Assembly (NCBI GenBank): GCA_031266805.1
Contig: JAISAH010000052.1
Span: forward strand, 1 to 64,000
Source of the DNA: Gracilibacteraceae bacterium
Lineage (GTDB): Bacteria > Bacillota > Desulfitobacteriia > Desulfitobacteriales > Syntrophobotulaceae
DNA: 64,000 nucleotides
Reading direction: 5' to 3'
This document shows, piece after piece, positions 9,499-58,470 of the stretch (its first letter is position 1; every line of letters begins with the position of its first letter). The position numbers were made by a program, and so were the translations under genes. The notes under the pieces were generated by a model. It saw only the letters and a list, made by a program, of their open reading frames with translations, did not search any database and was not told the origin of the DNA.

Positions 9499-11265
9499 CT
9501 ACCCCGCCCGGTCAAAATGAGCGCGCACGGCCTGGGCGACGCGCGGGGGCAAACCGGCGTCGCGCAGCGCTTCCTCCGTCGCCGCCGCCACGCCGTCCGC
9601 CGAGCCGAATTTTGTCAGCAGCATCCGCCGCCTGGCCACGCCGACGCCGGGAATTTCATCCAGCTGCGAGAGGGTCATTTGGCGCAGTCTTTGGCGCCGA
9701 TGGTAGGCGATGGCGAAGCGGTGGACTTCCTCCTGCATATATTCCAAAAAACGGAAAACAGCGCGATGACTGTCGTCAAGCGGCACTTCGCGGCCGGCGG
9801 CGTTCATGAGGGCGTGGGTGCGATGGCGGTCATTTTTGACGAGTCCGGCCACCGGCAAATCAATTTCCAAAAGGCGGAGAGCGGACAGAGCGGCGCCGAT
9901 CTGCCCGCGGCCGCCGTCCACCAGAACGAGATCGGGAAATTGGCCGCCCTCGCGTTTTAAGCGGCTGTAGCGGCGGGAGATCACCTCGCGCATACAGGCG
10001 GTGTCGTCCTGATTTTTCTGGGCATCAAGCCGGAACTTACGGTAAGCGGCGCGATTGGGCTGGGCGCCGGTGAATTGCACCATGCCGCCGACCATATTCG
10101 TCCCGGCGAGATTGGATATATCGAAAACCTCGATCGTTTGGGCAGCGGGAATAGCCAGCAGTTCCGCCAGTTCCGCCAGCACGCCGGCGCGTTCGGCCGC
10201 CTTTTTTCCTTCCAGCTGGATTTTCTCGTTCAGCGCCGTCTCGGCGTTCGTCTGGGCCAGGCGCACCAGATCGGCCGTTTTCCCCCGCCGGGGAACCGTG
10301 AGCGGCAGTATCTCCAGCACGGGAGACGGCTCGGCCAGAGGCGGGATGCAGATTTCCGGCGGCATGGCGCTGTTATCGCCGTAATACTGCATTAAAAACG
10401 AGATGAAAGCCTCTTCCGGCAGTTCGTAAAAAGGCGTGAGAAAACTGCCGCGATGGATCAGGCCGCCGTGGCGGTAAAAAAGGATCTGCACGCAGAGCAG
10501 CGCGTCGTTATGGGCCCAGGCGACGACGTCCCGGTCGCGCTCATCACCTAACAGAGCGCTTTGTTTTTCGCGCAAATGCCGCAGTTCGCCGATCAGATCC
10601 CGGTATTCGGCCGCCTGCTCAAAGCGCAGGTCCGCCGAGGCCTGGTTCATTTTTTCCTTCAGCCAGCGGAGGATCTCCTGCTGCTCGCCTTTGAGAAACA
10701 GGGCGGCTTTGGCGATGATATCCCGATATTCCGTTTCCGGGACGGCGCGCACGCAAGGGGCCAGACACTGCCCGATATGGTTGTAAAGGCAGGCTTTGTC
10801 CGGCAAAGTCTTGCACTTGCGCAGGGGCAACAGGCGGTTTAGCAGACGCGCCGCTTCCCGGGCGGCCGTCACGTTGGGGTAAGGGCCGTAATAGCGCCCG
10901 GCCTTTTGTTTAGGCGTGCGCGACACGAGGATGCGCGGATGTTTTTCCGCGGTTATGAGCAAATAAGGGTAGGACTTGTCGTCTTTCAGCATGATATTGT
11001 AGGGAGGCGAGTGTTCTTTGATCAGGTTGGCCTCAAGAATGAAGGCCTCCATTTCCGAGGAAGTCACGACATACTCAAAATCAGCGATACGCGCCACCAA
11101 AGCTTGCGTTTTCGCGTCATGCGAGCCGGTGAAATAGGAGCGCACACGGTTTTTCAGCGTTTTAGCCTTGCCGATGTACAGTATCTCTCCGGCGGCGTTT
11201 TTCATCAGATACACTCCGGGCCGGGCCGGCAGCAGCTGTAATTTCTCGCTGACCATGGTTTCCAT
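9499..11265 (-). CDS. uvrC: Excinuclease ABC subunit C
   Basis: Makes both incisions in nucleotide excision repair with UvrAB. 588 residues. The N-terminal GIY-YIG nuclease (PGVYLMKNAAGEILYIGKAK) performs the 3' cut. A UvrB-interaction region (FEQAAEYRDLIGELRHLREK, about 205-225) follows, then the RNase H-like domain (VFDISNLAGTNMVGGMVQF) for the 5' cut, and C-terminal helix-hairpin-helix motifs (LDEIPGVGVARRRMLLTKF). The chosen ATG (METMVSEKLQLL) has GGAGG 10 bp upstream; the frame extends 39 codons further without resembling the family. Confidence 0.95.
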   Translation of the reverse strand: METMVSEKLQLLPARPGVYLMKNAAGEILYIGKAKTLKNRVRSYFTGSHDAKTQALVARIADFEYVVTSSEMEAFILEANLIKEHSPPYNIMLKDDKSYPYLLITAEKHPRILVSRTPKQKAGRYYGPYPNVTAAREAARLLNRLLPLRKCKTLPDKACLYNHIGQCLAPCVRAVPETEYRDIIAKAALFLKGEQQEILRWLKEKMNQASADLRFEQAAEYRDLIGELRHLREKQSALLGDERDRDVVAWAHNDALLCVQILFYRHGGLIHRGSFLTPFYELPEEAFISFLMQYYGDNSAMPPEICIPPLAEPSPVLEILPLTVPRRGKTADLVRLAQTNAETALNEKIQLEGKKAAERAGVLAELAELLAIPAAQTIEVFDISNLAGTNMVGGMVQFTGAQPNRAAYRKFRLDAQKNQDDTACMREVISRRYSRLKREGGQFPDLVLVDGGRGQIGAALSALRLLEIDLPVAGLVKNDRHRTHALMNAAGREVPLDDSHRAVFRFLEYMQEEVHRFAIAYHRRQRLRQMTLSQLDEIPGVGVARRRMLLTKFGSADGVAAATEEALRDAGLPPRVAQAVRAHFDRAG

Positions 11266-27912: not shown

Positions 27913-28143
27913 ATGATATGTGTAAATTGCGGCAGCCGCCTGGTCGGTAAAATAGGCGTGGATCAGTATTACTGCTGCGACTGCTGCGTCGAATTCAAGA
28001 GTGAATCCAATCATGTAGTGGTTTATAACCTGGAAGAAGATGGAACATTGGTTATGCGCCAAGACTACAGGACGAGTGGGGAGTGGAGAGTTGAGAGTGG
28101 AGAGAGGAGAGTTGGGAGCGGGGAGTTGAGAGTGGGAAGTTGA
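27913..28143 (+). CDS. Small zinc-ribbon protein with a repeat-derived tail
   Basis: 76 residues. MICVNCGSRLVGKIGVDQYYC followed by CDCC gives two CxxC pairs of a zinc ribbon; VEFKSESNHVVVYNLEEDGTL follows. From about residue 54 the sequence (EWRVESGERRVGSGELRVGS) is encoded by the GAGTGGAGAGTT simple repeat, so the natural C-terminus has probably been replaced or extended by it. It sits 40 bp downstream of the Rrf2 gene and is likely co-transcribed. Confidence 0.7.
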   Translation: MICVNCGSRLVGKIGVDQYYCCDCCVEFKSESNHVVVYNLEEDGTLVMRQDYRTSGEWRVESGERRVGSGELRVGS

Positions 28144-28166
28144 TTGAGTGGAGAGTGGAGAGTTAG
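28072..28166. repeat. GAGTGGAGAGTT simple-repeat tract
   Basis: About seven degenerate copies of a GAGTGGAGAGTT-like unit, running from inside the small zinc-ribbon gene into the following spacer. A short copy in the opposite orientation lies before guaB. Confidence 0.75.
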
Positions 28167-43766: not shown

Positions 43767-45028
43767 CATTGATGATCATGTTTCTGATTCTGGCGGTCTG
43801 TCTTGTCGTCGGCATCCCCGTCGCGGTATCCATAGGCGTGTCGTCTCTTTCCTATCTCCTGATGGCGGATATCAACCTGTACGCGATGATCCAACGCATG
43901 TACGCCGGTCTGGATACGATGACGCTGATCGCCCTGCCGGGTTTTGTGTTGGCCGGCGACCTCATGGACCGGGGCGGTTTGGCCCGCCGGCTCGTGCGCT
44001 TCTGCGATATGGCGGTGAGCCGGATCGCCGGCGGTCTCAGCATTGTGACCATTCTCACCTGTATGGTGTTCGGCGCCATTTCCGGTTCCAATGTGGCGAC
44101 CACGGCGGCCGTCGGCGGCATCATGCTGCCCGAGATGGCAAAACGCAACTACGATAAAGCGTACGCGGCGGCAGTGGCGGCGACCGGCGGTATTCTCGGC
44201 GCGATCATCCCGCCAAGCCTCGGCATGGTCGTCTACGGTTCCACCACCGGCGTCTCGATCACCAATATGTTCAAAGCAGGCATACCGACCGGCATATTGA
44301 TGGGGTTTCTGGCCGGCTCGCTCTGTTATTATTTTGGCAAAAAAAACGGTTATATGGGCTCCGGTACGAAGTATACCCGCCAAGAAGCTCTAACCGTCAC
44401 CAAAGAAGCGATTTTGGCTTTCGGCGCGCCTGTCATCATCCTAGGCGGAATTTTTTCCGGAAAATTCACCCCCACGGAAGCCGCGATCATCTCCATTGTT
44501 TACGCGATTTTGATTGGCGCCTTTGTCTACAAGGAGCTGACGCCGCGCAACCTTTTGGAGACTTTGCGCAAAGGGGCGACCACCTCGGCCTGTATTCTGT
44601 ATATTATCGCCTACGCCACGCTTTTCGGCTGGATCATCGCCGCGGAGCAGGTGCCGGCCATGGCTTTCGCCGCCATCGAGGCTTTCACCACCAACAAATA
44701 TATCATCCTTATTCTGGTAAACGTCGTACTGCTGATTGCCGGCATGTTTATGGAAAGCAGCGCCATCATCATCATTACCGCGCCTCTTCTGGCCCCGCTG
44801 GCAGTCATGCTGGGCATCCATCCCGTCCACTTCGGCATCATGGTCATCATCAATATCAATATCGGCTGTCTGACACCGCCGTTTGGCGTCTGTTTATTCA
44901 CCGCCTCCATGATCAGCGACGTTCCGGTGCAGAAAATAGTGCCAAAACTCCTGCCGTTTATCCTCATCTATGTGATCGGACTCTTGCTTATCACCTTCAT
45001 CCCTCAGATCGCCTTGCTGCTTATTTAG
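43763..45028 (+). CDS. dctM: TRAP transporter large permease (DctM family)
   Basis: 421 residues, about twelve helices. Family motifs LPGFVLAGDLMDRGGLARRLVRF, GAISGSNVATTAAVGGIMLPEM, ATGGILGAIIPPSLGMVVYG and the C-terminal GCLTPPFGVCLFTAS are all present. It is the sodium-driven transport subunit. The ATG overlaps the dctQ stop and follows GGAGGAT; the longer open frame is not used. Hairpins follow the stop codon. Confidence 0.93.
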   Translation: MTLMIMFLILAVCLVVGIPVAVSIGVSSLSYLLMADINLYAMIQRMYAGLDTMTLIALPGFVLAGDLMDRGGLARRLVRFCDMAVSRIAGGLSIVTILTCMVFGAISGSNVATTAAVGGIMLPEMAKRNYDKAYAAAVAATGGILGAIIPPSLGMVVYGSTTGVSITNMFKAGIPTGILMGFLAGSLCYYFGKKNGYMGSGTKYTRQEALTVTKEAILAFGAPVIILGGIFSGKFTPTEAAIISIVYAILIGAFVYKELTPRNLLETLRKGATTSACILYIIAYATLFGWIIAAEQVPAMAFAAIEAFTTNKYIILILVNVVLLIAGMFMESSAIIIITAPLLAPLAVMLGIHPVHFGIMVIININIGCLTPPFGVCLFTASMISDVPVQKIVPKLLPFILIYVIGLLLITFIPQIALLLI

Positions 45029-45125
45029 GGACTGTTTGGAAATAAACAGTCCCTTAGAGCCGCCGCCGGAAAAATCGAAACAGAGAAAAGCCGGACCGCT
45101 TCGCTCACGGGCCGGCTTTTCTCTG
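45027..45125. terminator. Two consecutive hairpins after dctM
   Basis: The first is an 11-bp perfect stem (AGGGACTGTTT/AAACAGTCCCT) overlapping the dctM stop. The second is a 14-bp perfect stem (CAGAGAAAAGCCGG and its complement) flanked by A and T runs, a bidirectional terminator for dctM and the opposing small gene. Confidence 0.75.
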
Positions 45126-45670: not shown

Positions 45671-46396
45671 ATGATGAATAGAGACGAATGGGGCGGTAAA
45701 CTTGGGATCCCGGGCCCTTCCCAGAATCCAAAAAAGCCCTGCAAAATCCTGCTTGTCGAGGACGACGCCATGATAGCGTCGGGTCTTGTTTACGCCCTTG
45801 AGCAGGAGGGCTATGCCGTCACGCGCGGCAGTTGCGTCCGCGAAGCGCGGGCGGCCATGATCAGCGAACGCTTCGACCTCTCCATACTTGATATGCAGCT
45901 GCCGGACGGCACGGGCTTCGATGTGCGTGAAGCTCTTGCCGGCACGGATACCGCGATTATCTTCCTAACCGTCGTAGACGATGAGGGCAGCGTCGTCCGC
46001 GCCTTGGAGGGCGGCGCGGACGACTATATCACCAAACCGTTCCGCTTGCGGGAACTGCTCGCGAGGGTAAAACGCACCCTCAACACGCAGACCGGCGAGC
46101 GGCATAACGCGATAGTCGCGCTCGGCGGCGTATCCGTCGACACAGCGGCGGGCAAAGCATACGCTGGTGAAACGACGCTCGACCTGACCGCCCTTGAATA
46201 CCGTCTGCTTCTAACTTTCGCCCAAAACAAAGGGCGGACTCTTTCCCGCGCGCAGATACTGGAACAGATCTGGGACGCGGCGGGTAACTTCGTAGAAGAT
46301 AACACGCTGACCGTCTACATCAAACGCTTGCGGGAAAAACTTGGGGACGCCGCGAATATAGAAACCGTGCGGGGTTTCGGCTACAGAATGGATTAA
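45671..46396 (+). CDS. OmpR-family response regulator (3' end rebuilt by the integrated element)
   Basis: 241 residues. The receiver domain starts at ILLVEDDAMIASGL, with phospho-acceptor Asp in LSILDMQLPDG and the Lys in YITKPFRLRELLARV; the winged-helix domain ends LTVYIKRLREKLGDAANIETVRG. The last residues (GFGYRMD) come from the element: the displaced native end, GLGYRVD, is found 11.3 kb downstream next to the histidine kinase. Its partner genes (kinase, ABC ATPase, permease) are therefore now separated from it. About 20 extra N-terminal residues may reflect a later true start. Confidence 0.9.
   Translation: MMNRDEWGGKLGIPGPSQNPKKPCKILLVEDDAMIASGLVYALEQEGYAVTRGSCVREARAAMISERFDLSILDMQLPDGTGFDVREALAGTDTAIIFLTVVDDEGSVVRALEGGADDYITKPFRLRELLARVKRTLNTQTGERHNAIVALGGVSVDTAAGKAYAGETTLDLTALEYRLLLTFAQNKGRTLSRAQILEQIWDAAGNFVEDNTLTVYIKRLREKLGDAANIETVRGFGYRMD
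46292..46374. repeat. Left attachment repeat (attL side)
   Basis: 83 bp identical to the right copy, encoding VEDNTLTVYIKRLREKLGD and onward in frame with the response regulator. Beyond the identical part similarity continues to about 46,428 with substitutions and an 18-nt deletion relative to the kinase start region. Confidence 0.85.
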
Positions 46397-46428
46397 AAAA
46401 AGCGAGATCATCAAGCGCATCGTGGACG

Positions 46429-46455
46429 TATTTGACGCATTTTTGACGCATCACG
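46429..46455. repeat. Left arm-type repeats (TTTGACGCAT)
   Basis: Two direct copies of a TTTGACGCAT-like unit. The same 27 bp, with one mismatch, recurs just after the integrase gene, as expected for integrase arm sites. Confidence 0.6.
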
Positions 46456-48165
46456 TTACAAAACTTCACGAATCGCCGCGAAAAAAAGAAGCTATTTTGG
46501 GGATCCGCTCTACCGCCAAAACTAAGCCTGACATAGCTTTGATTTTGGGGATCCGCTCAACTGCGTAGAAAAGGGTGTGACACAAACAGTCACCCCTTGA
46601 AGGGCGTCAGTAATATTTACACCCTTGCGGCCGCTCAATCGCGCATGAGGACCGCCGGGTATTACCAAGTTGGGAATACCTTCGCGACAAAGGGGGTGAC
46701 GCAAACGGTCACCCTTGAAGGGCGCTCAATCACATCAAGCCATGGCGTAGGTTTTACCTACCCAGGGGGCGCTCAATCGCGCGTAAGGGCCGGTATTATC
46801 GCCGGCAGGGTAATACAGTAGACCAAACCTACGGTAATCCCTACGGTAATCCCTACGGCAAATCCACGTAGTTAACTTAAGCCCTTTGCTTAAGCCTTTT
46901 GCAAGGCTCGCGTAATCGTGCGTGAGGTCGCTATATTGAGCCCCGGCCTCCCACACCATACATATATCCAATTTTCCCCTATCCCCCCACTACCTACCAT
47001 GGCATAAGGTGGAAATAAATCAGAGAGCCTCTCTAATTTAAAATACGAGAATATTCAGAACATATACCCATACATATATTCCCATTAGTCGTTGGCTGTT
47101 TGGCTTCCCGCTCCACGCTCCACCGCTCTATAGCCTGGAAGGTGGTCCGTGTTTCGCGGAGTACCTCCGATATCCCGCTCTACCGTGAAGTGGAAGGGTA
47201 TCCGTCTGTGTATACCCCTTCCCCCTTCAATGCGACTGAGTGACTAAGTCAAGCTTAGTCACCTTCATGGCCGCATCGATCGATCAATGCTTGTTGGCCG
47301 CTCACCGAAAGAGGGCCCTGAAAGAGCGCTCCTGAAAGAGCGCCCCTGAAAGATGGGGTGAGGTAAACTCATAACATCAATTTTTGAGCCGTTTTCCCTG
47401 CTGCAGACAGGGCGCAAAAACATCTATTTTATCGCCGGAAGGGTTTCCTATTACCGGCGAAACTTGTTCGCGGGGATGCCACACTATACACGCGCGCGTG
47501 ATCAAACCCATTTTTACCCATGACGATACTAAAGCGGTAATAAAGCGTTACTCAATCTCCCGTGAAAAGGTATTCCCAACTTAGGGACACCCCTTGAAGG
47601 AATGGACTACATGATATCCCGCTCTACTCCGTGAAGCGATGATACTAAGTATGTTCATGTAAAGCATCGTAATGATTTAAGGGCAATGCCTGGCGTCGGT
47701 AATACCGACATCATCTCCATAGGGGCATCTCCGCAAGATAATTTAAGGGTATTTACGGGGCTTGTTCCTTCAAGGGTTATACCATGTCTGGGGATCCGCT
47801 CAATTCAACCCGCTCAATTCAGGCATTCCGGGACACATGCCCTTATTTCGCGTTTTAAGGCTCCCCTGAGGGATGCAGTGCCTTAATATACGTTATCGCC
47901 CTGTTTCGTGTCACAGCGGCAGGCTATGGCGTTATTCGGGGGTCCCTCATTCAGGAGCGGTTATTCATTTGGGTATCCGCTCAACCACGACAAGGTCAGT
48001 GACCGTACTCAGATGACGCTCAACCCGCGACAAGATAGGGCGTCAGTATTATTGACGCCCTCTGCCGAACATAGGGCGTCGGCATTACCGACACCCCCTT
48101 GAAGGAATGGCTTGCGGTAACGAATCGTTACTCCATCCAAGGCTTATCCTTCAAGGCTGATTAGC
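46456..48165. other. 1.7-kb non-coding mosaic of short hairpins and diverged repeats
   Basis: No supported gene. Two diverged 120-bp units (starting about 46,573 and 46,693) share GGGTGAC/GTCACCC hairpins, CCCTTGAAGGGCG and GCTCAATCGCG. Other hairpins include GTAGGT-TTT-ACCTAC and GTGACTAAG-TCAAG-CTTAGTCAC (47,240-47,262). CCGCTCTAC/CCGCTCAA phrases recur more than ten times, here and around 51.6 kb. AAGTTGGGAATACCTT at 46,667 occurs inverted at 47,567. Stop codons in all frames and short ORFs argue against coding. Confidence 0.6.
47369..47460 (+). repeat. Copy 1 of a 92-bp structured repeat
   Basis: Begins TCATAACATCAATTTTTGA and contains CCCTG/CAGGG and TCGCCGG/CCGGCGA hairpins. A diverged copy lies at 50,454-50,544 upstream of a small gene. 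Confidence 0.65.
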
Positions 48166-48462
48166 TCATTCGTAATGTGTCCACATGCTAATCACTTTTA
48201 CAATGCCATCGTATGGCTTTCCGTTCGCGTCCTTTGCGTTTGTATCATTGGGCAGAACCTCATACACAAAACGGTGCTGCCGATTGATGCGGCGAGAATA
48301 CGCGCCTTTCAAGTCGCCTTTGAGCTTTTCAAAGTCTTGTGATTCCTCAAACGGGTTGTTGCGGATGGTTTTTATAACTTCAACGGTCTTGAGTTTTAGT
48401 CCGGTGCGCTCGACTTTTACAGCGTCTTTTTGGGCTTGCTTTGTAAGCCTTATATCATACAT
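48166..48462 (-). CDS. Toxin of a type II TA pair (YoeB/Txe-RelE-like)
   Basis: 98 residues from MYDIRLTKQAQKDAVKVERTGL, the usual start of Txe/YoeB-like mRNA interferases; the core LKGDLKGAYSRRINRQHRFVYEV carries the basic and aromatic residues of the active site and ends WTHYE. An insert (PNDTNAKDANGKPYDG) lengthens the loop before the last strand. Starts 8 bp inside the antitoxin gene, so translation is coupled. It probably stabilises the element. Confidence 0.85.
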   Translation of the reverse strand: MYDIRLTKQAQKDAVKVERTGLKLKTVEVIKTIRNNPFEESQDFEKLKGDLKGAYSRRINRQHRFVYEVLPNDTNAKDANGKPYDGIVKVISMWTHYE

Positions 48463-48679
48463 CCGGCCACACTTCCGACAGCGACGCGCAATCAACTAGC
48501 GGCGTATTCAATCCGGCCCTGATTTTATCAGACATACCGGGAATAGACGTTAAATAATCTGTGTCGTTATCATGCAGGCCCAAGCTGTACTTCTGGAACG
48601 ATATAAACTCAAGAACTTTTTCAAGCACGCCATCTGGCAGTGTATCAATTTGTGCCTTTGCGTAATCACGGTTAATCAT
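48455..48679 (-). CDS. Antitoxin of the type II TA pair
   Basis: 74 residues. MINRDYAKAQIDTLPDGVLEKVLEFISFQKYSLGL followed by SIPGMSDKIRAGLNTPLVDC and SLSEVWPDV matches small antitoxins found directly upstream of YoeB/Txe-type toxins. GGAGGG precedes the ATG. The gene overlaps the toxin and would be the DNA-binding and toxin-neutralising partner. Confidence 0.8.
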   Translation of the reverse strand: MINRDYAKAQIDTLPDGVLEKVLEFISFQKYSLGLHDNDTDYLTSIPGMSDKIRAGLNTPLVDCASLSEVWPDV

Positions 48680-48709
48680 TTACTTTGCCCTCCATTTGCG
48701 ACACACCCT

Positions 48710-48952
48710 TTAAAGCTGATCGTCGCGTATGTCCGACACGTCCAATGTGATTTTCTGCCCGTCAGACAAGATAAACGCCAGTTCGCAATCCAAGAACGCC
48801 GCGATCTTGATTAGATCCTCTGAGGAAAAGCTCCCCCGTGTGAACTTATTCGTCAAAGCTTGCGGCATGGCCAAACCCAGGTAACAAGCCAAATCCTTGT
48901 TTTTCCTGCCTTTAATGGCTAACAACCCCTTTATTTTCCCTGCCACACTCAC
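48710..48952 (-). CDS. Small XRE-like DNA-binding protein
   Basis: 80 residues from a GTG with AGGAGG 7 bp upstream; the longer open frame lacks a site. VAGKIKGLLAIKGRKNKDLACYLGLAMPQALTNKFTRGSFSSEDLIKIAAFLDCEL is a helix-turn-helix of the Cro/XRE type, followed by LAFILSDGQKITLDVSDIRDDQL. It is divergent from a perfect promoter 94 bp away that serves the plus-strand genes, so it may repress it. Confidence 0.75.
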   Translation of the reverse strand: MSVAGKIKGLLAIKGRKNKDLACYLGLAMPQALTNKFTRGSFSSEDLIKIAAFLDCELAFILSDGQKITLDVSDIRDDQL

Positions 48953-49045
48953 GCCATCACCTCCTTTGATATTACTGTAAACCAACAACACATATTTGTC
49001 AACCGAGAACGGGAAAAAATAAATCAAAAAAGGTTAAAAAACCTA

Positions 49046-49706: not shown

Positions 49707-50126
49707 ATGAAAAGCAAGGTTATGATTATCGCCAATACGCTTGTCATTAATGGCATTGGCAGGAGCGCTGCCATGATCAAGGCCTGGGCATTGGTCAAGC
49801 AGTCAGCCTTGGATGTGAAAGCCGCCGGCGTCACTCACGGGAACCGGCAAAAGGCCCTGGCGCGGCTCAAAGCTTATCCGGCGGCACAGGTCAGCATCAG
49901 ACTGGAGCGGGAACCAGGCAACGCCTTTGATCCTTATGCCGTCAAGGTTGTTGCCGCCGTGGAAGGGAAGGGGGAATATACCATCGGGTATCTGCCACGG
50001 GCGCTGGCGCTGGTAGTCGCGCCGCTGATGGACGCCGGTAAGGCGATAGCCGCCAGATTCCAGGCAGTAGTTGGCGGTCTGGACATGACGCAGTTCCACG
50101 GCCTGCGATTAGGCGTGGAGATCTAA
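49707..50126 (+). CDS. HIRAN domain protein
   Basis: 139 residues. AAGVTHGNRQKALARLKAYPAAQVSIRLEREPGNAFDPYAVKVV then YTIGYLPRALALVVAPLMDAG is the HIRAN fold (G-x-x-x ... REPxNxxDpxAI ... IGYlP), which binds 3' ends of single-stranded DNA and is found alone in phages and mobile elements. A DNA-processing role in replication or recombination is inferred. GAAAGGAGA precedes the ATG. Confidence 0.85.
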   Translation: MKSKVMIIANTLVINGIGRSAAMIKAWALVKQSALDVKAAGVTHGNRQKALARLKAYPAAQVSIRLEREPGNAFDPYAVKVVAAVEGKGEYTIGYLPRALALVVAPLMDAGKAIAARFQAVVGGLDMTQFHGLRLGVEI

Positions 50127-50169
50127 GGGGCGGAATGACACCGCCCCCCTTGCAAAAGGAGGTGAAAAA

Positions 50170-50451
50170 GTGACTTCCAGGATCGAGCAGGAAACCATTG
50201 TCTGCTTTAACGAAGCGGAATCATCGGCGGACATTGAGACGTTTAACGGCGTGCTTACACGGAAACTTGCAAGGCTATCCGAAACCCGGCCAGGCGAGGT
50301 TACGGAAATAACGGACGCCTTCCGGAAACGTGACGGAGCGGTGAGATACACTTTCCCCAAGAAATGGTTAAGGATTAATCCTTCGCGGCTGTTGTCCGAC
50401 GAAGAAAAAGAGCGCCGAAGAATGAACGCTCAAAACATGCACCGGAAATAA
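50170..50451 (+). CDS. Phage-type hypothetical protein (93 residues)
   Basis: GTG start with AAAGGAGG 6 bp upstream. TIVCFNEAESSADIETFNGVLTRKLARLSETRPGEV ... RYTFPKKWLRINPSR resembles a family common in Bacillota prophages and conjugative elements (FNEAE...; P-K-K-W-hydrophobic-x-I-x-P ending). Function unknown. Confidence 0.7.
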   Translation: MTSRIEQETIVCFNEAESSADIETFNGVLTRKLARLSETRPGEVTEITDAFRKRDGAVRYTFPKKWLRINPSRLLSDEEKERRRMNAQNMHRK

Positions 50452-50453
50452 AT

Positions 50454-50544
50454 TCATAACATCAATTTTTGACCCGTTTTCCCCTGTAAAGCATCAGGGC
50501 AAAATGATCTATCTTATCGCCCAAGGGGTTTTGTATTACCGGCA
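50454..50544 (+). repeat. Copy 2 of the 92-bp structured repeat
   Basis: Shares TCATAACATCAATTTTTGA with copy 1 and keeps CCCTG/CAGGG as a hairpin despite base changes between. It lies 65 bp upstream of the next start codon and may act as a leader structure. Confidence 0.65.
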
Positions 50545-50608
50545 ACAAATGAGTTTCATTTTCCGGGGAACTAAGCGGAGTTTTTTGACTGTGAAGGGAG
50601 TAAAGAAA

Positions 50609-50917
50609 ATGGATCCTTGGCTCGCGTTGGAAGAACCCATAACCACGGCAGGGGAAATTGCCCGATGCCTGAGACTGCTCAGCGCGTCGGAATTCGCTAA
50701 CGAAGACGAACAAGCCGCTTTCACTTTGATGGCTGACCGATTGAAGGAAGTGCATGACGAATTACACTCGCTCTTTGAAGGGCGTCCGCGTTCGCGGCCC
50801 CTTATGCAAACGCCCCTTATGCAAACTCGCGTCTTGACGAGTGCGGGAATTGTAACAGCCGCGGAGTTGTCCGAGTTGTCCGAGAAGAAGTCCGAGAAGG
50901 TGTCCGAGAAGAAATGA
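50609..50917 (+). CDS. Hypothetical acidic protein with repetitive tail
   Basis: 102 residues from MDPWLALEEPITTAGEIARC, with GGGAG upstream. The N-terminal 60 residues look helical (FANEDEQAAFTLMADRLKEVHDELHSLFEG). The tail is low-complexity, made of repeated L-S-E-K/K-S-E-K units (SELSEKKSEKVSEKK), encoded by TCCGAG repeats. Not recognised. Confidence 0.6.
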   Translation: MDPWLALEEPITTAGEIARCLRLLSASEFANEDEQAAFTLMADRLKEVHDELHSLFEGRPRSRPLMQTPLMQTRVLTSAGIVTAAELSELSEKKSEKVSEKK

Positions 50918-51088
50918 ACATGGGGCAAGGGGGTCGCGAATCGTGACCCCCTCTTTTGTTGCCCTCCCTCTTTTCTTTGCCGGCGAAAAGGTATAACATA
51001 GGCATACATAGGGCATACATACCCCCTAATAACGAATCGTTAGGGGGGTGGCGAATCACCACCACCTCACAGGCTATGGAGGGATCAC

Positions 51089-51508
51089 ATGACAAAAGAG
51101 CAACTACAAGAGTACGTCCATCTGGAAAAACTTATTGATCAAGGCTTTGCAGCACTCGCAGAACTTCGGAGCAGGGCCGAAAAAATGACCGGGGTTATAA
51201 CCGGTATGCCGGGAGCGGCGCCCATGCCTGATCACATCGGCGCTATTGTGGCCAAAATGGAGCACATAAAGCAGCGGATCGCGACTTACGTTGCCCGGCA
51301 GGAGGCCATAGAAAAAGCTGTTGAAACATTGCCGGAACGCGAACAACACTTGATTCGCGAGCGGTACCTTAGGGGCAAATCCTGGGATGATATAGCCAAG
51401 GCTATGCACTACAGCCATAAGCATTTGCATCGGCTCCACAGCGCCGCCCTGCAGATGTTGGCGGCCGTGGAGCCTGGGGACCCACTCAGCCCCGAAAAGA
51501 TGACGTAA
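51089..51508 (+). CDS. Sigma-70 region 4-like phage regulator (DUF1492-like)
   Basis: 139 residues. A long N-terminal helix (TKEQLQEYVHLEKLIDQGFAALAELRSRAEKM) is followed by a helix-turn-helix, VETLPEREQHLIRERYLRGKSWDDIAKAMHYSHKHLHRLHSAALQ, as in DUF1492/ArpU/RinA-type late regulators of Bacillota phages. It could control late or packaging genes of a helper or of the element. It is the last plus-strand gene of the left set, with GGAGG upstream. Confidence 0.8.
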   Translation: MTKEQLQEYVHLEKLIDQGFAALAELRSRAEKMTGVITGMPGAAPMPDHIGAIVAKMEHIKQRIATYVARQEAIEKAVETLPEREQHLIRERYLRGKSWDDIAKAMHYSHKHLHRLHSAALQMLAAVEPGDPLSPEKMT

Positions 51509-51638
51509 GTATTACTTACATCACCCTACGTCACCCTACTCCGCGTTTCACGGAGCGGGGGGGGCAATGCCGTGAAGGTGAATTTGCCTTCCCGCTCTAC
51601 TTGATATCCCGCTCTACTCCCGCCGTGAAATCAAAGGT

Positions 51639-51697
51639 ATAGTGACTTTATTGACTAAACAGGCAGTATCAGGGGATAAAGTCAATTTAGTCACTAT
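51639..51697. repeat. Long imperfect hairpin with 18-bp arms
   Basis: Arms of 18 bp with two mismatches (left arm ATAGTGACTTTATTGACT) around a 23-nt loop. The arm motif GTGACT...TTGACT resembles the smaller hairpin at 47,240 (GTGACTAAG-TCAAG-CTTAGTCAC). It lies in a 278-bp gap that also holds CCGCTCTAC phrases. Confidence 0.65.
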
Positions 51698-51745
51698 GAT
51701 TGTTCACCCGCTCCACGCCCTATGCTGGATATAGGCCGATATGTA

Positions 51746-52425: not shown

Positions 52426-52658
52426 TTTAATCACCTTCCTTCTTGCTTGTTTCTTGGTAAACCTTGCATGTTGTGAAAATGTGCTTCGATTAAAACTCAA
52501 TATTGTATTTGCGCTCTTTTTATTTGGATTTCACGGAAATATTGCCTTGTCTTCCTTGGTGTAATCATTAATATCTCCGATAACGTTAAGGTAAATTGTA
52601 ATTGCGTACCTGCTCGTCTCTTTCCAAAAAAGTAATTTTCAGTGGTTAGTCCGGCAAA

Positions 52659-52812
52659 GGAAGAATGTCAAAATTCATGTTTTCTGTGAGGAAGAATGTC
52701 AAAATTCATTATTCTCCGAGACCCCCTATCCATGCGGCTTTCAGGGGTTTTTTCAAGGAAGAATGTCAAAATGTATGTGACGCGTGACTTTTGACATTCT
52801 TGACATTCTTCC
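52659..52812. repeat. Iteron cluster, putative replication origin of the element
   Basis: GGAAGAATGTCAAAATTCAT occurs at 52,659 and 52,690 exactly and at 52,757 with two changes. Two inverted copies of its core (TTTTGACATTCT and TTGACATTCTTCC) abut at 52,789-52,812. They lie directly downstream of the helicase gene. A hairpin (ACCCCC...AGGGGTTTTTT) sits between the second and third copies. The rest of this 420-bp gap is AT-rich. Confidence 0.7.
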
Positions 52813-52847
52813 TTTTTCATCGGCTTCATTTTCCCTAATAATTTCCA

Positions 52848-54029
52848 TCAATCTTCATCCGTGGGTTCGGCGGGAACCACTTCCTTCGAGAACAGATCAA
52901 TTACATTATTTGATTCTGATTTTGAAAGTTTTACTTCTGTGAACGGCTCATTGTTTAATTCTTCATCAATTTTCATATACCAAAACGGCCCAACTTTATA
53001 GCTCCTGACACCAGCCCTGGGCTTCGCGCGGTTGATTGCCTCCCACGAAATCCCCCTTTCCTTCGCAAGTGCTTTGACCTCATCTGACTTCACATCCCCA
53101 TCCGCCAGCACTTCAAGTAGAAAAGATTCCGCATCATTCCGCGCCGTTGCCGGCCTGCCGCGTTCTTTAGGGGCGACATCCCCCCGGACAAGATCGGAAG
53201 GCGTTACGGTCCCGTCCGATCCGGCCCACAGGAAGCCCCGCCCCGGAATCAAGTCGAACAGGCGGGCAGACGGCTTGATCGCCAAAAGGTTTGTTTTGGC
53301 CGGCAATACCGCACTGCGAAATGGAGCATCGCCCTCGCGAGCGATTTTGCCGACGGTCCACACCGACCGGAACAAACCGTTAATGCCGATAGATCCGCCG
53401 GCCCATCCGACACTGGGGGTGTTTCCAGAAGCGGCAGATTTGTTGATGTGTTGAATTACCAAAACGGCAGTATTGTACTTTTCCGCTAGCTCCTGTAAGT
53501 CTTTCAGCGCGTCTGTCGTTTCGTTAGCCCTCCACATGTCCACGCCAGCCCCGAGAAAATGCTGGAGCGTGTCAAAAACCGCCAAAGCAGGCCTGACTTT
53601 TTTAAACGCCGCCGCCACTCGCGAATCACTAAATGTGACACGGTTGGGCTTGATGAAGGTGATGTTGTCGAAGTCCTGCTCTTTCAAACCAAGCATCTCA
53701 AGCCGTGGTTTTATGGTGTACTCCAGGACATCATCAAAATCAGCATGAAGTACAGGCCCGCGCTCAACCTTTATCATCTGCCCATCATTCCCCGGAAACA
53801 CTCCACCGCTTGCCACGGCGGCAACCAACGCAAGAGAAAGCCAGGTTTTTCCGCTGTCCGGCAAGCCTTGGATGGAGTTGAGCGCGCCGCGAACCAAAAA
53901 GTTTTCGATCAACCATGGAACGGCACGGGAAATAACGTCGTTTGCCCCAATAAGGAACCCCGCTAGATCTTCCTGGGCCTTGCGCTCCTTCTTCTGACGG
54001 TCAACTTCCTTCATGAGATCATCATCCAC
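52848..54029 (-). CDS. RepA-like AAA/RecA-fold replicative helicase
   Basis: 393 residues. Walker A is GLPDSGKTWLSLALVAAV and Walker B-like LAVFDTLQHFLGAGVD, followed by VLVIQHINKSAASG, as in hexameric RepA/KaiC-type ATPases. Its C-terminal part (SDEVKALAKERGISWEAINRAKPRAGVRSYKVGPFWYMK) looks like a winged helix that could bind iterons. The GTG start, 10 bp after AAGGA, overlaps the primase stop by 8 bp, so both are translated together. Confidence 0.8.
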   Translation of the reverse strand: MDDDLMKEVDRQKKERKAQEDLAGFLIGANDVISRAVPWLIENFLVRGALNSIQGLPDSGKTWLSLALVAAVASGGVFPGNDGQMIKVERGPVLHADFDDVLEYTIKPRLEMLGLKEQDFDNITFIKPNRVTFSDSRVAAAFKKVRPALAVFDTLQHFLGAGVDMWRANETTDALKDLQELAEKYNTAVLVIQHINKSAASGNTPSVGWAGGSIGINGLFRSVWTVGKIAREGDAPFRSAVLPAKTNLLAIKPSARLFDLIPGRGFLWAGSDGTVTPSDLVRGDVAPKERGRPATARNDAESFLLEVLADGDVKSDEVKALAKERGISWEAINRAKPRAGVRSYKVGPFWYMKIDEELNNEPFTEVKLSKSESNNVIDLFSKEVVPAEPTDED

Positions 54030-54624
54030 ATCGCCCACCGTCCTTGAAATCAAGCACGGCCTCAACCCGCACCGCGTCACCAAACTGCCCGGACAGACAA
54101 TCCAAGAGGTATTCCGTGTACAACCGCCGATCGCTGTACCGGCACCAACCGTCAGTGACCCTGCCCCCCATATTCTCGGGAGACAACCGGATTTCGGCAT
54201 CTAAATACAGCCGGTGAGCGGCTGAGAGCCGATCCCGCAAACGATCCTCGGCGGCGAGAAAAGCCATTTTCCTCTCGCGTTGCCGCTCCCGCTCCCGCAT
54301 GGCGGCCGAATCGACAGTCCGCCGTGGAAGGTCAGCAATGCCGAGCTCGCCAGCGATCCACTTTGCGGCGTCGAGCGGGCCGACATTAAGCAGCCGGCCC
54401 GCAAGGTCCACAGCATCCCCTTTGAGACCGCAGCCCCAGCAAACCCATCGGGATTCACCAACGCAAAAGCTCGCGGTTTTTTCCGCGTGGAAGGGACATC
54501 TGGCCCAATATCGGGATCCTTTCTTTTCCAAGCTGACCCCCAAGCGCGCGGCCACTTCCGGGAGCCGTAACTCTCGGACAGCCGCAAACACGTCGAATCT
54601 CTGCGCTACCTGTGTTGATGCCAT
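54022..54624 (-). CDS. CHC2 zinc-finger primase-type protein
   Basis: 200 residues. RYWARCPFHAEKTASFCVGESRWVCWGCGLKGDAVDL is the CHC2 zinc finger (C-x2-H ... C-x2-C) that opens DnaG-type primases. There is no TOPRIM domain, so it is either a minimal primase subunit acting with the helicase or a DNA-binding loader. The remainder is helical and basic (MRERERQRERKMAFLAAEDRLRDRL). It overlaps both neighbours. Confidence 0.8.
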   Translation of the reverse strand: MASTQVAQRFDVFAAVRELRLPEVAARLGVSLEKKGSRYWARCPFHAEKTASFCVGESRWVCWGCGLKGDAVDLAGRLLNVGPLDAAKWIAGELGIADLPRRTVDSAAMRERERQRERKMAFLAAEDRLRDRLSAAHRLYLDAEIRLSPENMGGRVTDGWCRYSDRRLYTEYLLDCLSGQFGDAVRVEAVLDFKDGGRCG

Positions 54625-55226: not shown

Positions 55227-56018
55227 ATGGTAGTCAATGAAGAAAAGCCAGCCAAAGAAAAGCGGCTAACAATTTTCGGGAAGCGGCTCCACGAATTACG
55301 CGGTGATTTGTCGCAAGTTGAATTTGCAAAACACCTTGGAGTTACCGCCGCAACAATCGGTTATTACGAAAACTCGGAGAGATTGCCAGACGCCGAAACG
55401 CTTCGCAAGATCTGCATGGCTTGCGACTGTACATCCGATTACCTGATTGGCCTGTCGGGCGTAAGGAAGCCAGATATATCCGCGCAAGCGGCAAGCAACC
55501 GTTACGGATTGAGTGAAAAGGCGCTGGAGATCCTTGAACAGCTTAATGAACCGCTCGACATCGACAGCGCGGAACAGGAGCGGGTAATAGCCAAGCACAA
55601 AGCGCATGTAACAGCCTTTGAGCGAGTGGCAGGGCATATTTACGATATGATTAAAGACGGACTGCCGTCCGACGTGCAAGTGCTTCGCGACCTTCAAGCC
55701 TGCCCCGAGCCTACAGATGAAGAATTTGAGGCGCTCGAGGAGATAGAGCAGGACGAGATCTGCAAACAAGCCCTTACCGCATTAAATGAACTCCTGACCG
55801 TTTCCGCCGGGGACGATTGGCCATACGGCCTTCATGTGCTCGTTTCAACATACGATTATTGCCACCGCGAATATTCAGATGTGACGCAGGCCACACACGG
55901 CAAGGCAGGGCGGGTAACGTACCCGATCGAACCAGATGCGCAACGTAACCTCGAACTTTATAGCCTTAACGAAACACTAATGCATCTTCGCGACAAATTG
56001 ACCAAGAAGGAGGGATAA
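55227..56018 (+). CDS. XRE family repressor of the element
   Basis: 263 residues. LHELRGDLSQVEFAKHLGVTAATIGYYENSERLPDAETLRKICMACDCTSDYLIGLS is a classic Cro/CI helix-turn-helix. The C-terminal 180 residues are helical and acidic, without the LexA-like Ser-Lys protease dyad, so induction probably works by protein-protein contact rather than RecA-stimulated cleavage. AAGGAGG precedes the ATG. The integrase gene starts 3 bp after its stop, so the repressor limits its own and the integrase's expression. Confidence 0.85.
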   Translation: MVVNEEKPAKEKRLTIFGKRLHELRGDLSQVEFAKHLGVTAATIGYYENSERLPDAETLRKICMACDCTSDYLIGLSGVRKPDISAQAASNRYGLSEKALEILEQLNEPLDIDSAEQERVIAKHKAHVTAFERVAGHIYDMIKDGLPSDVQVLRDLQACPEPTDEEFEALEEIEQDEICKQALTALNELLTVSAGDDWPYGLHVLVSTYDYCHREYSDVTQATHGKAGRVTYPIEPDAQRNLELYSLNETLMHLRDKLTKKEG

Positions 56019-56020
56019 CC

Positions 56021-57394
56021 ATGGCCAGCATACGCAAGCGCGGCGAGACTTATCACATAGCCGTCAGCCTGGGAGTGGACGAAAACTTTAAACAAGTCCG
56101 GAAATACACGACGTTTGACCCGCCGCACGGTATGACGGTGAAGCAGGCCAAAAAAGCGGCCGATGAATACGCCCGTGAGTTTGAGCTTAAATGCAAGGGC
56201 CTGACCGCCTATGACGAAAACATGACGCTGACAGAGCTATGCGCCTGGTATTACGAGAACATTGCCCCAAATCGCATCAGAGAGCGCACACAGGAAAACA
56301 GCCGTTACAGGCTTGATTTATGGGTGCTGCCGAAACTCGGAAAAAAGAAACTCCGCGACCTGAAACCGGCAGTCCTCGCGGCTCACTTCGCGGAAATGCT
56401 GAAAAGCGGTGGGGCGCGGACTAGGTATCGCACACGCAGCGATTTCGACTTAAAGGCGGCGATTACCGCTAAAGGCCTGTCATACCGCGAACTGGAGCGG
56501 CAAGGCGTATGTAGCAGGGTAACGCGCATAGCGGGCGGCGGCGCAACTCAAGAGACCTGTCAGCGGATTTGCGATTACCTTGATATCCCGCTCAGTACAG
56601 CCTTTGAAGAACGGACAGAGCATAGGCCGCTTTCGGCGAACACGGTCAAATGCACGCAGACGAGTTTAAGCGCGGTATTCTCGGCAGCTGTCAAGGCTGA
56701 GATCATCACACAAAACCCGCTCGCCAACGTAGACCCTCCCACAGTGGGTGAGATCGATCAGCCCGTCCTCACGCCGGATCAGGCCCGTCTGGTTCGCTCA
56801 CGGCTCGAGGCTGTAGAACACATCAGCGTCGGGGCGCTTCTTATCACGGCACTCTATACAGGGGCGCGGACAGGAGAACTACGGGCCCTCAAGTGGAGCG
56901 ACGTAAACCTTGACGCCGGGTTCATAGACATCTGCAAGAGCGTTGACCACAAAGGCAGAGTGACCCAGCCGAAAACAAGGTCAAGCAAGCGCGTAAGGCC
57001 TATTGACCAGGCGTATCATGTTAAATTCCTGCGCCAGTACAGGGCGCGTCAGGCGGCTCAAATCCTCGCGGCCGGTTCTCGCTGGACAGACAACAAGCTT
57101 GTATTCCCCAACCTCACAGGCGGCTATTTGAGCGCCACCCTTGCCAATAAGATACTCAAAAGCGTCATACAGGACATGGACATACCGCAAACCCTTCATG
57201 CCCATTCTTTACGGCATAGCTTCGCGTCAATCGCCATCGACAGCGGGGCGAACGTCAAGACGGTGCAGGACGCATTAGGCCACAGCTCAAGCAGTATAAC
57301 GCTGGATATCTATGCTCACAGCTTCGCGGCCGCGCAGGCAAGAGCCACGGAAGCGGTAAGCCTGGCAATAACCGGCGGCGTGACCGCACTTTAG
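56021..57394 (+). CDS. int: Tyrosine site-specific integrase with an inserted helix-turn-helix
   Basis: 457 residues, longer than the usual 380. An N-terminal arm-binding domain (MASIRKRGETYHIAVSLG) and a SAM-like core-binding domain (MTLTELCAWYYENIAPNRI) are followed by about 70 extra residues (FDLKAAITAKGLSYRELERQG ... SRVTRIAGGGATQETCQRICDYLDIPLS) that look like a Cro/XRE domain inserted in the core-binding region. The catalytic domain keeps the Arg in ALYTGARTGELRALKW, H-x-x-R in HSLRHSF, His in LGHSS and the nucleophile Tyr in LDIYAHS. It should catalyse insertion into the response regulator gene. Confidence 0.93.
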   Translation: MASIRKRGETYHIAVSLGVDENFKQVRKYTTFDPPHGMTVKQAKKAADEYAREFELKCKGLTAYDENMTLTELCAWYYENIAPNRIRERTQENSRYRLDLWVLPKLGKKKLRDLKPAVLAAHFAEMLKSGGARTRYRTRSDFDLKAAITAKGLSYRELERQGVCSRVTRIAGGGATQETCQRICDYLDIPLSTAFEERTEHRPLSANTVKCTQTSLSAVFSAAVKAEIITQNPLANVDPPTVGEIDQPVLTPDQARLVRSRLEAVEHISVGALLITALYTGARTGELRALKWSDVNLDAGFIDICKSVDHKGRVTQPKTRSSKRVRPIDQAYHVKFLRQYRARQAAQILAAGSRWTDNKLVFPNLTGGYLSATLANKILKSVIQDMDIPQTLHAHSLRHSFASIAIDSGANVKTVQDALGHSSSSITLDIYAHSFAAAQARATEAVSLAITGGVTAL

Positions 57395-57410: not shown

Positions 57411-57458
57411 TATTTGACGCATTATTGACGCATCACGCCCCAAAATGTGCGTCAAAAC
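57411..57458. repeat. Right arm-type repeats of the integrase
   Basis: Two direct TTTGACGCAT-like units matching the left-end copy, plus one inverted unit (GTGCGTCAAAA) 6 bp further on. Placed between int and the attachment repeat, as in lambda-type att arms. Confidence 0.6.
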
Positions 57459-57521: not shown

Positions 57522-57656
57522 ATGAAACGAGGTAAAATGCCGGAGTATTCAGTAGAAGATAACACGCTGACCGTCTACATCAAACGCTTGCGGGAAAAAC
57601 TTGGGGACGCCGCGAATATAGAAACCGTGCGGGGGCTTGGCTACCGTGTGGATTAA
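57522..57656 (+). CDS. 44-residue mini-cistron: element start fused to the displaced response regulator end
   Basis: An ATG in element DNA, with AGGAG 12 bp upstream, opens MKRGKMPEYS and continues in frame into VEDNTLTVYIKRLREKLGD and the native GLGYRVD end of the response regulator. Its stop overlaps the histidine kinase start, so it could preserve the translational coupling that the intact regulator gene gave to the kinase. The product itself is only the tail of a winged helix. Confidence 0.5.
   Translation: MKRGKMPEYSVEDNTLTVYIKRLREKLGDAANIETVRGLGYRVD
57552..57634. repeat. Right attachment repeat (attR side)
   Basis: 83 bp identical to the left copy; the sequence beyond it is the native junction of the response regulator and histidine kinase genes. 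Confidence 0.85.
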
Positions 57657-58470
57657 AAAAAGCGAGATCGTCAAGCTCTCCGCTGACATAAGGCGCATCG
57701 TGGACGGGCGTGACGTCGACCTGCGGGACAACCGCGAAGGAGTGTTTTCCATCCTTAAAAATGACGTACATACACTCGCCAGCCTGAAAAATGAGCAGGT
57801 CAACGCGCTCCGGCATGACCGCGACCGTCTGAAAGATACGCTGGCGGACATCTCCCACCAGTTGAAAAGCCCGCTGACCTCAATGCTTCTGATGGCGGAT
57901 CTGCTGGAAACCGCGCCGCCTGACAGGCAAGATGAGTTTATCGCCAATATCAGGACGGGGCTGACCCGCATGGAATGGCTCGCGTCCGCGCTTTTGAAGC
58001 TGGCGAAGCTTGACGCGGGCGCCGTGGCGTTTGCGCGTGAGTGGACGGACGCTTCCGAGTTGATCGCTCTGGCGCTTGAGCCGCTGCAAATCCTGCTTGA
58101 CGTTAAAAACCAGCGCGTCGCGGTCGCGGCAGGTGAAACGCGGATTTTCTGCGACAGGCGCTGGACGGCGGAAGCCCTGTCAAACGTCATAAAAAACGCG
58201 TCCGAGTATTCGCCTGACGGCGGCGAGATACGCATTGAATCGGGCGAGGATCCCATATGCGTCTGGATAGCCGTCGCCGACTGCGGCAAAGGATTATCCG
58301 CGTCTGAAACCGTCAGGCTTTTCCGGAGATTCGAAGGCTCGCGGAGCGAAAAAGGCTACGGGATCGGTCTGCCGCTGGCATTGGCCGTTATGCGCGCTCA
58401 AAGCGGCGACATACAGGCGGGCGGCGGCGAGAACGGCGGCGCGGTGTTTACGCTGAAATTTTACCGCTGA
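57646..58470 (+). CDS. Sensor histidine kinase without membrane segments
   Basis: 274 residues from a GTG (VWIKKSEIVKLSADIRRI); a TTG three codons earlier is also possible. Phospho-acceptor His in DTLADISHQLKSPLTSMLLM; N box NVIKNASEYSP, then WIAVADCGKGLS and GYGIGLPLALAVMRAQ of the ATP lid. No transmembrane or input domain is seen, as in kinases that sense through an associated ABC permease. It overlapped the response regulator gene before the element inserted; it is now 11 kb from it. Confidence 0.88.
   Translation: MWIKKSEIVKLSADIRRIVDGRDVDLRDNREGVFSILKNDVHTLASLKNEQVNALRHDRDRLKDTLADISHQLKSPLTSMLLMADLLETAPPDRQDEFIANIRTGLTRMEWLASALLKLAKLDAGAVAFAREWTDASELIALALEPLQILLDVKNQRVAVAAGETRIFCDRRWTAEALSNVIKNASEYSPDGGEIRIESGEDPICVWIAVADCGKGLSASETVRLFRRFEGSRSEKGYGIGLPLALAVMRAQSGDIQAGGGENGGAVFTLKFYR

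Follow-up and report, generated by a model that had tools for sequence, protein, structure and literature searches.

PICIs, phage satellites that are induced and packaged by a helper phage, measure about 11 kb and carry an integrase, a repressor and excisionase-like, primase and helicase-like genes together with an ArpU-like regulator. The PLE satellites of Vibrio cholerae contain a 2.7-kb non-coding region built from four repeat families, shown by experiment to contain the origin (PMC7145576), and transcribe, from between inverted repeats, an abundant non-coding RNA that has antisense homology to leaders (PMC7567579). Short repeats with one orientation are also known from mycobacteriophages: the 13-bp asymmetric stoperators of Cluster A lie mostly in one orientation throughout the genome and are bound by a known repressor (PMC6550527, PMC9283540), and the SAS/ESAS of Cluster K are one-directional 13-bp repeats in spacers, some of them paired with imperfect inverted repeats (PMC3203893). 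REPINs and REP palindromes, for their part, are extragenic, hairpin-forming sequences scattered across the host genome and associated with a transposase (PMC3116915).

The locus described here belongs to an integrated element that carries phage-type genes and spans about 11.3 kb, located within a 64-kb window (the whole stretch of DNA analysed) of a draft genome. The main features of the element, from left to right, are:

46292-46430, plus strand: attL, left copy of a 139-bp direct repeat, at the 3' end of a response-regulator gene
46429-46463 (plus strand) and 57411-57445: 35-bp repeat just inside each end, the copies 89% alike, with two TTGACGCAT
46464-48165, no strand: left arm, non-coding, repeat-built and hairpin-rich, about 1.7 kb
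48166-48973, minus strand: RelE/YoeB-like toxin, putative antitoxin and HTH gene, read towards the arm
49707-51508, plus strand: intact phage-type cassette with HIRAN, a phrog_1709 member, a small protein and an ArpU-like regulator
after the ArpU-like regulator, minus strand: gene for a VRR-nuclease-like protein
52640-52850, no strand: candidate origin, beside the AAA_25 gene in AT-rich DNA
52848-54624, minus strand: AAA_25 helicase-like protein and CHC2 zinc-finger primase-like protein
after the CHC2 primase-like gene, minus strand: genes for excisionase-like proteins
55227-57394, plus strand: XRE-type repressor and tyrosine integrase
57552-57690, plus strand: attR, right copy of the 139-bp direct repeat

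The two attachment repeats are 91% identical over 139 bp, with the first ~83 bp being identical. The element sits in the 3' end of the response-regulator gene, the reading frame of which is restored by the integration, and the response regulator is now split from its histidine-kinase partner, encoded beyond the right end of the element. The 35-bp repeats with TTGACGCAT are probably arm-type sites of the integrase, the left copy bordering the left arm. As in satellites, a tyrosine integrase is accompanied by flanking attachment repeats, and replication genes (CHC2, AAA_25) are present while no capsid, tail or terminase gene was recognised among the main ORFs; judged by its genes, the element resembles a phage satellite or a stripped-down phage. 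It is similar to PICIs in its size, in its integrase, repressor, excisionase-like, primase, helicase-like and ArpU-like genes and in the lack of recognised virion genes, but no capsid-remodelling or terminase gene was recognised. Searches of viral and genome contigs with the AAA_25 helicase-like protein and the integrase gave only distant relatives, at about 20-37% identity. The gene for the small protein preceding the ArpU-like gene has in-frame tandem repeats in its C-terminal part, of 15 bp (50797-50826) and 12 bp (50878-50913).

The left arm makes up 15% of the element and lies between its left end and the toxin gene, beside att. When ORFs of at least 80 aa were considered, 46397-48165 was the longest ORF-free stretch of the window, the runner-up being 512 bp long. 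Short ORFs of 60-78 aa are present in the arm; six-frame translations gave no PHROG match better than E = 0.14. The absence of a supported gene, as stated in the initial annotation, was therefore confirmed. No Rfam covariance model matched the arm up to E = 5. Promoter- and terminator-like sites were not in excess over shuffles, and folding stability was about equal on both strands.

The arm ranked first in repeat content among all tiles of the window. It contains 82 pairs of direct 10-mer repeats, compared to 1.6 expected (shuffle maximum 10), 22 inverted 10-mer repeats compared to 4.2 (maximum 16) and, at a net stem score of at least 7, nine hairpins compared to 1.75 +/- 1.3 (maximum 4). The baseline was given by dinucleotide shuffles, and coding controls of the same length showed no such excess. 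The direct repeats bear out the construction from repeated modules that had been proposed for this region; among these, CCCTTGAAGGGCG is found twice, CCTTGAAGG six times, CCGCTCTAC three times and GCTCAATCGCG twice with a third, diverged copy, and TACGGTAATCC forms a 12-bp tandem repeat of 2.6 copies (two perfect, one imperfect). The features located within the arm are:

46506-48024, plus strand: array of the motif CGCTC[AT]A[CT], with starts at 46506, 46554, 46632, 46723, 46770, 47124, 47176, 47620, 47797, 47811, 47978 and 48017
46570-46597: GGGTGAC/GTCACCC hairpin with a single bulge
46602-46624, plus strand: palindrome GGGCGTCAGTAATATTTACACCC, with more copies at 47691-47713, 48038-48060 and 48074-48096
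46667-46682 and 47567-47582: 16-bp exact inverted pair
46694-46714, plus strand: perfect hairpin GGGTGAC-GCAAACG-GTCACCC
47111-47290, plus strand: weak collinear likeness to the post-ArpU spacer at 51539-51725
47282-47476, plus strand: decayed copy of 50373-50569, consisting of the 3' end of gene 50170-50451 and the downstream spacer
47607-47630, plus strand: 24-nt module, 96% match to the post-ArpU spacer at 51597-51620
within the arm: dyads GGGCGTC and CCCTTGAAGGG

The GGGTGAC/GTCACCC hairpins of the initial annotation are present, although only one of the two is perfect, and the inverted pair that it reported is exact over its 16 bp. This pair extends to 26 nt at 85% (46657-46682 / 47567-47592) and encloses 884 nt.

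A strand bias not noticed earlier was detected for the motif CGCTC[AT]A[CT], with 12 copies on the plus strand of the arm and none on the minus strand. Its flanks vary (GGGGATC-, GATATCC-, GGG-), and two further copies, at 51593 and 51610, lie in the post-ArpU spacer. When pairs of the motif were sought across the family, two were found in the element and no other genome was clearly above the control. Duplication alone could have produced this one-directionality. As with stoperators, a short asymmetric sequence is repeated many times in a preferred orientation (12 : 0), but the copies are clustered in one arm, whereas stoperators are spread over the genome and bound by a repressor. The combination of one-directional short repeats and inverted repeats in phage spacers is shared with SAS/ESAS, although SAS are found at translation starts and the arm motifs are not. 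In form, then, the arm resembles the Cluster A and Cluster K systems as well as PLE, and the PLE non-coding region is its closest working analogue: to the repeat-rich non-coding stretch of about 2-3 kb typical of PLE corresponds one of 1.7 kb, also repeat-built and with inverted repeats in a small integrated element. The difference is that the likely origin of the element lies elsewhere and that a decayed gene end makes up part of the arm.

Of all matches between the arm and other parts of the element, this gene end, overlooked in the initial annotation, gives the strongest (47282-47476 to 50373-50569, z = 17), with a core at 47321-47458 reaching E 8e-19. The source takes in the final ~75 coding bases of gene 50170-50451. 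In the copy, the spacer part was kept (80% over 95 bp), with the CCCTG...CAGGG stem retained and its loop changed, whereas the gene-end part has degenerated and 14-bp tandem repeats have replaced some of it. The likeness of 47111-47290 to the post-ArpU spacer scored 70.5, compared to 63 for the best of 200 shuffles, and the other resemblances of the arm were weak (z 3-4 among some 80 comparisons). From left to right, the pieces starting at 46913, 47321 and 47607 correspond to a block shared with a prophage, described below, to the gene end with its spacer and to the post-ArpU spacer; a post-ArpU-like piece also precedes the gene-end copy, so that the cassette order is imperfect.

The block at 46913 is related to a contig of another genome of the genus (G018:C175, here L048), the end of a prophage with an integrase (31% identity), an XRE repressor and a CHC2/DUF3987 primase-helicase, and with a terminase small subunit gene (terS, PF10668) at the end of the contig. 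The interval that separates the replication gene from terS holds, directly upstream of the latter, a repeat-built non-coding block of the prophage's own, with 95 direct repeats compared to 0.7 expected, adjoining a remnant of a HIRAN gene detected by tblastn. Positions 46913-46986 of the arm (plus strand) match L048:10643-10716 with 71% identity over 75 columns (E 8e-6 within this contig), and both have a CTAAG...CTTAGTCACC hairpin. One copy of palindrome GGGCGTCAGTAATATTTACACCC is found at L048:4164-4186, and a GGGCGTCAGTAAT palindrome lies near the integrase of the prophage. An ORF with an ArpU-like start (L048:10881-11078) overlaps the C-terminal HIRAN remnant just before the terminase small subunit.

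The modules of the arm are confined to the element and, in part, to this same-genus prophage, the one related element that the searches recovered. By blastn against its own genome, the arm matched only the element itself, with a few short outside matches at E above 1; outside the element CCCGCTCTAC was found apparently inside genes, at chance level, and in five genomes of the genus the palindrome GGGCGTCRGTAAT... (at most one mismatch) was detected only in this element and once in the G018 prophage. Host repeats found equally elsewhere, which by the initial annotation would have refuted its reading, were rejected on these searches and pattern counts, which show them to be element-specific. The host has a palindromic repeat of its own, different from those of the arm, since the palindrome AGGGACTGTTTGGAAATAAACAGTCCCT at 45026-45056 has a second copy on another contig (L015). 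Elsewhere in the window, a 7-bp unit, GAGTGGA, is repeated in tandem 12.6 times (28074-28163).

Blastn of the arm against phages, plasmids and 83 genomes of the class detected no relative, and no phage sharing it was found in the public collections searched. Pattern scans of viral contigs gave no match for AATCGTGCGTGAG... or GGGCGTCRGTAAT..., and the 11 matches of GTGACRCAAACRGTCAC were read as chance, the contigs having nothing else in common with the arm. CTAAGYCAARCTTAGTCACC matched two viral contigs, within apparent Bro-N-type antirepressor genes, and another gene of this type (L134) is matched by part of the L048 block. On these matches the modules might be antirepressor fragments or antisense sequences; against this, the Bro-N genes of the genus itself lack the sequence and tblastx gave no extended relationship. 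The non-coding CTAAG...CTTAGTCACC module (L048:10288-10360 and 10540-10576; window 47240-47275) also resembles a stretch of apparent Bro-N-type antirepressor genes in the viral contigs L118 and L119 and in the genome L134, a resemblance that may reflect chance, gene fragments or antisense.

Regarding replication, the best iteron array of the element lies outside the arm, at 52657-52815 (GC 0.37), where a 24-bp direct repeat (AAGGAAGAATGTCAAAATTCATGT) occurs three times (52657, 52688 and 52755) together with an inverted partial copy. From these iteron-like repeats in AT-rich DNA by the helicase gene, 52640-52850 is the probable replication origin. Because the array adjoins the helicase gene, an origin within the arm, as had been suggested, becomes less likely.

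In the explanation that we prefer, and which we regard as having an even chance of being right, the arm would be what remains, collapsed and without genes, of a second copy of the cassette still intact at 49.7-51.8 kb, its spacers having been kept and amplified with their putative cis-acting sites; the secure part of the relic is about 200 of the 1,700 bp and the remainder is extrapolation. The cassette genes would have been lost, whereas the spacers would have been retained, as carriers of cis-acting sites (the directional motif and the dyads), and multiplied by short local duplications; some phages similarly have asymmetric sites for regulator binding repeated in their spacers. Such sites might be recognised at the DNA level by a regulator, or else by a packaging protein belonging to the element or to a helper phage. 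The parts kept in the arm are possibly cis-acting DNA sites, and a role at the DNA level, or no role, is favoured over a structured RNA because folding is about equal on both strands, promoters and terminators are not in excess and no RNA family was recognised. A further reading, in which an array of 12 one-directional putative protein-binding motifs with interleaved dyads would have been kept on purpose, recruiting a phage protein such as a terminase or a late regulator, while the intervening genes were lost, seems quite unlikely to us.

Among the alternatives, the arm might be a functional control region of a phage satellite, acting as packaging start, as part of the replicon or as both, by analogy with the PLE region, part of which is needed for replication (PMC7145576). 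Its place next to att, in an element in which no virion genes were recognised, speaks for this, as does the related prophage block upstream of terS, but with a better origin candidate at 52640-52850, no terminase site or same-species helper prophage found and no phage with the arm in public collections, we consider it rather unlikely. The packaging function proposed in the initial annotation is a possible one, and its support is positional: the L048 block, of which 75 bp match the arm at 71%, lies directly upstream of the HIRAN remnant and terS. That the arm is a template for regulatory RNA, like the transcript between the PLE inverted repeats (PMC7567579) or the P4/P1 antisense RNAs, is decidedly unlikely, even though an inverted pair encloses several hundred nucleotides and the minus strand, if transcribed, would be ~80% complementary to 50449-50543 over 95 nt. 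Common descent explains this complementarity, and the lack of promoter or terminator excess, the about equal folding of both strands and the missing Rfam match weigh against such a template. In this scenario, the toxin-antitoxin operon would be transcribed leftwards into the arm, and the resulting RNA would be antisense to the leader that precedes the gene at 50609.

A neutral mosaic of small mobile palindromes of the REPIN/MITE kind is also distinctly improbable. The arm does share with REPINs extragenic palindromes that form hairpins, several palindrome families occupy spacers, one palindrome is shared with a second element and the order is variable. Nevertheless, these palindromes are element-specific, in families of 2-4 copies absent from the rest of the genome, where REPINs have many dispersed host copies, and the element showed no REP-associated transposase. 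Spread of palindromes, also raised in the initial annotation, leaves the best long match unexplained, as this is a gene end with its spacer and not a palindrome. Finally, it is extremely improbable that small genes were overlooked, as the ORFs of 60-78 aa that exist are without family match in any frame and the repeats cross all frames and strands.

Small phage-derived islands are expected to be compact, and an element with 15% of repeat-built spacer calls for an explanation. In this genus, another mobile element also carries a repeat-built spacer, upstream of its terminase gene. Should the arm be the relic of a cassette, spacers rather than genes would have been kept, and the directional motif would offer a concrete target.
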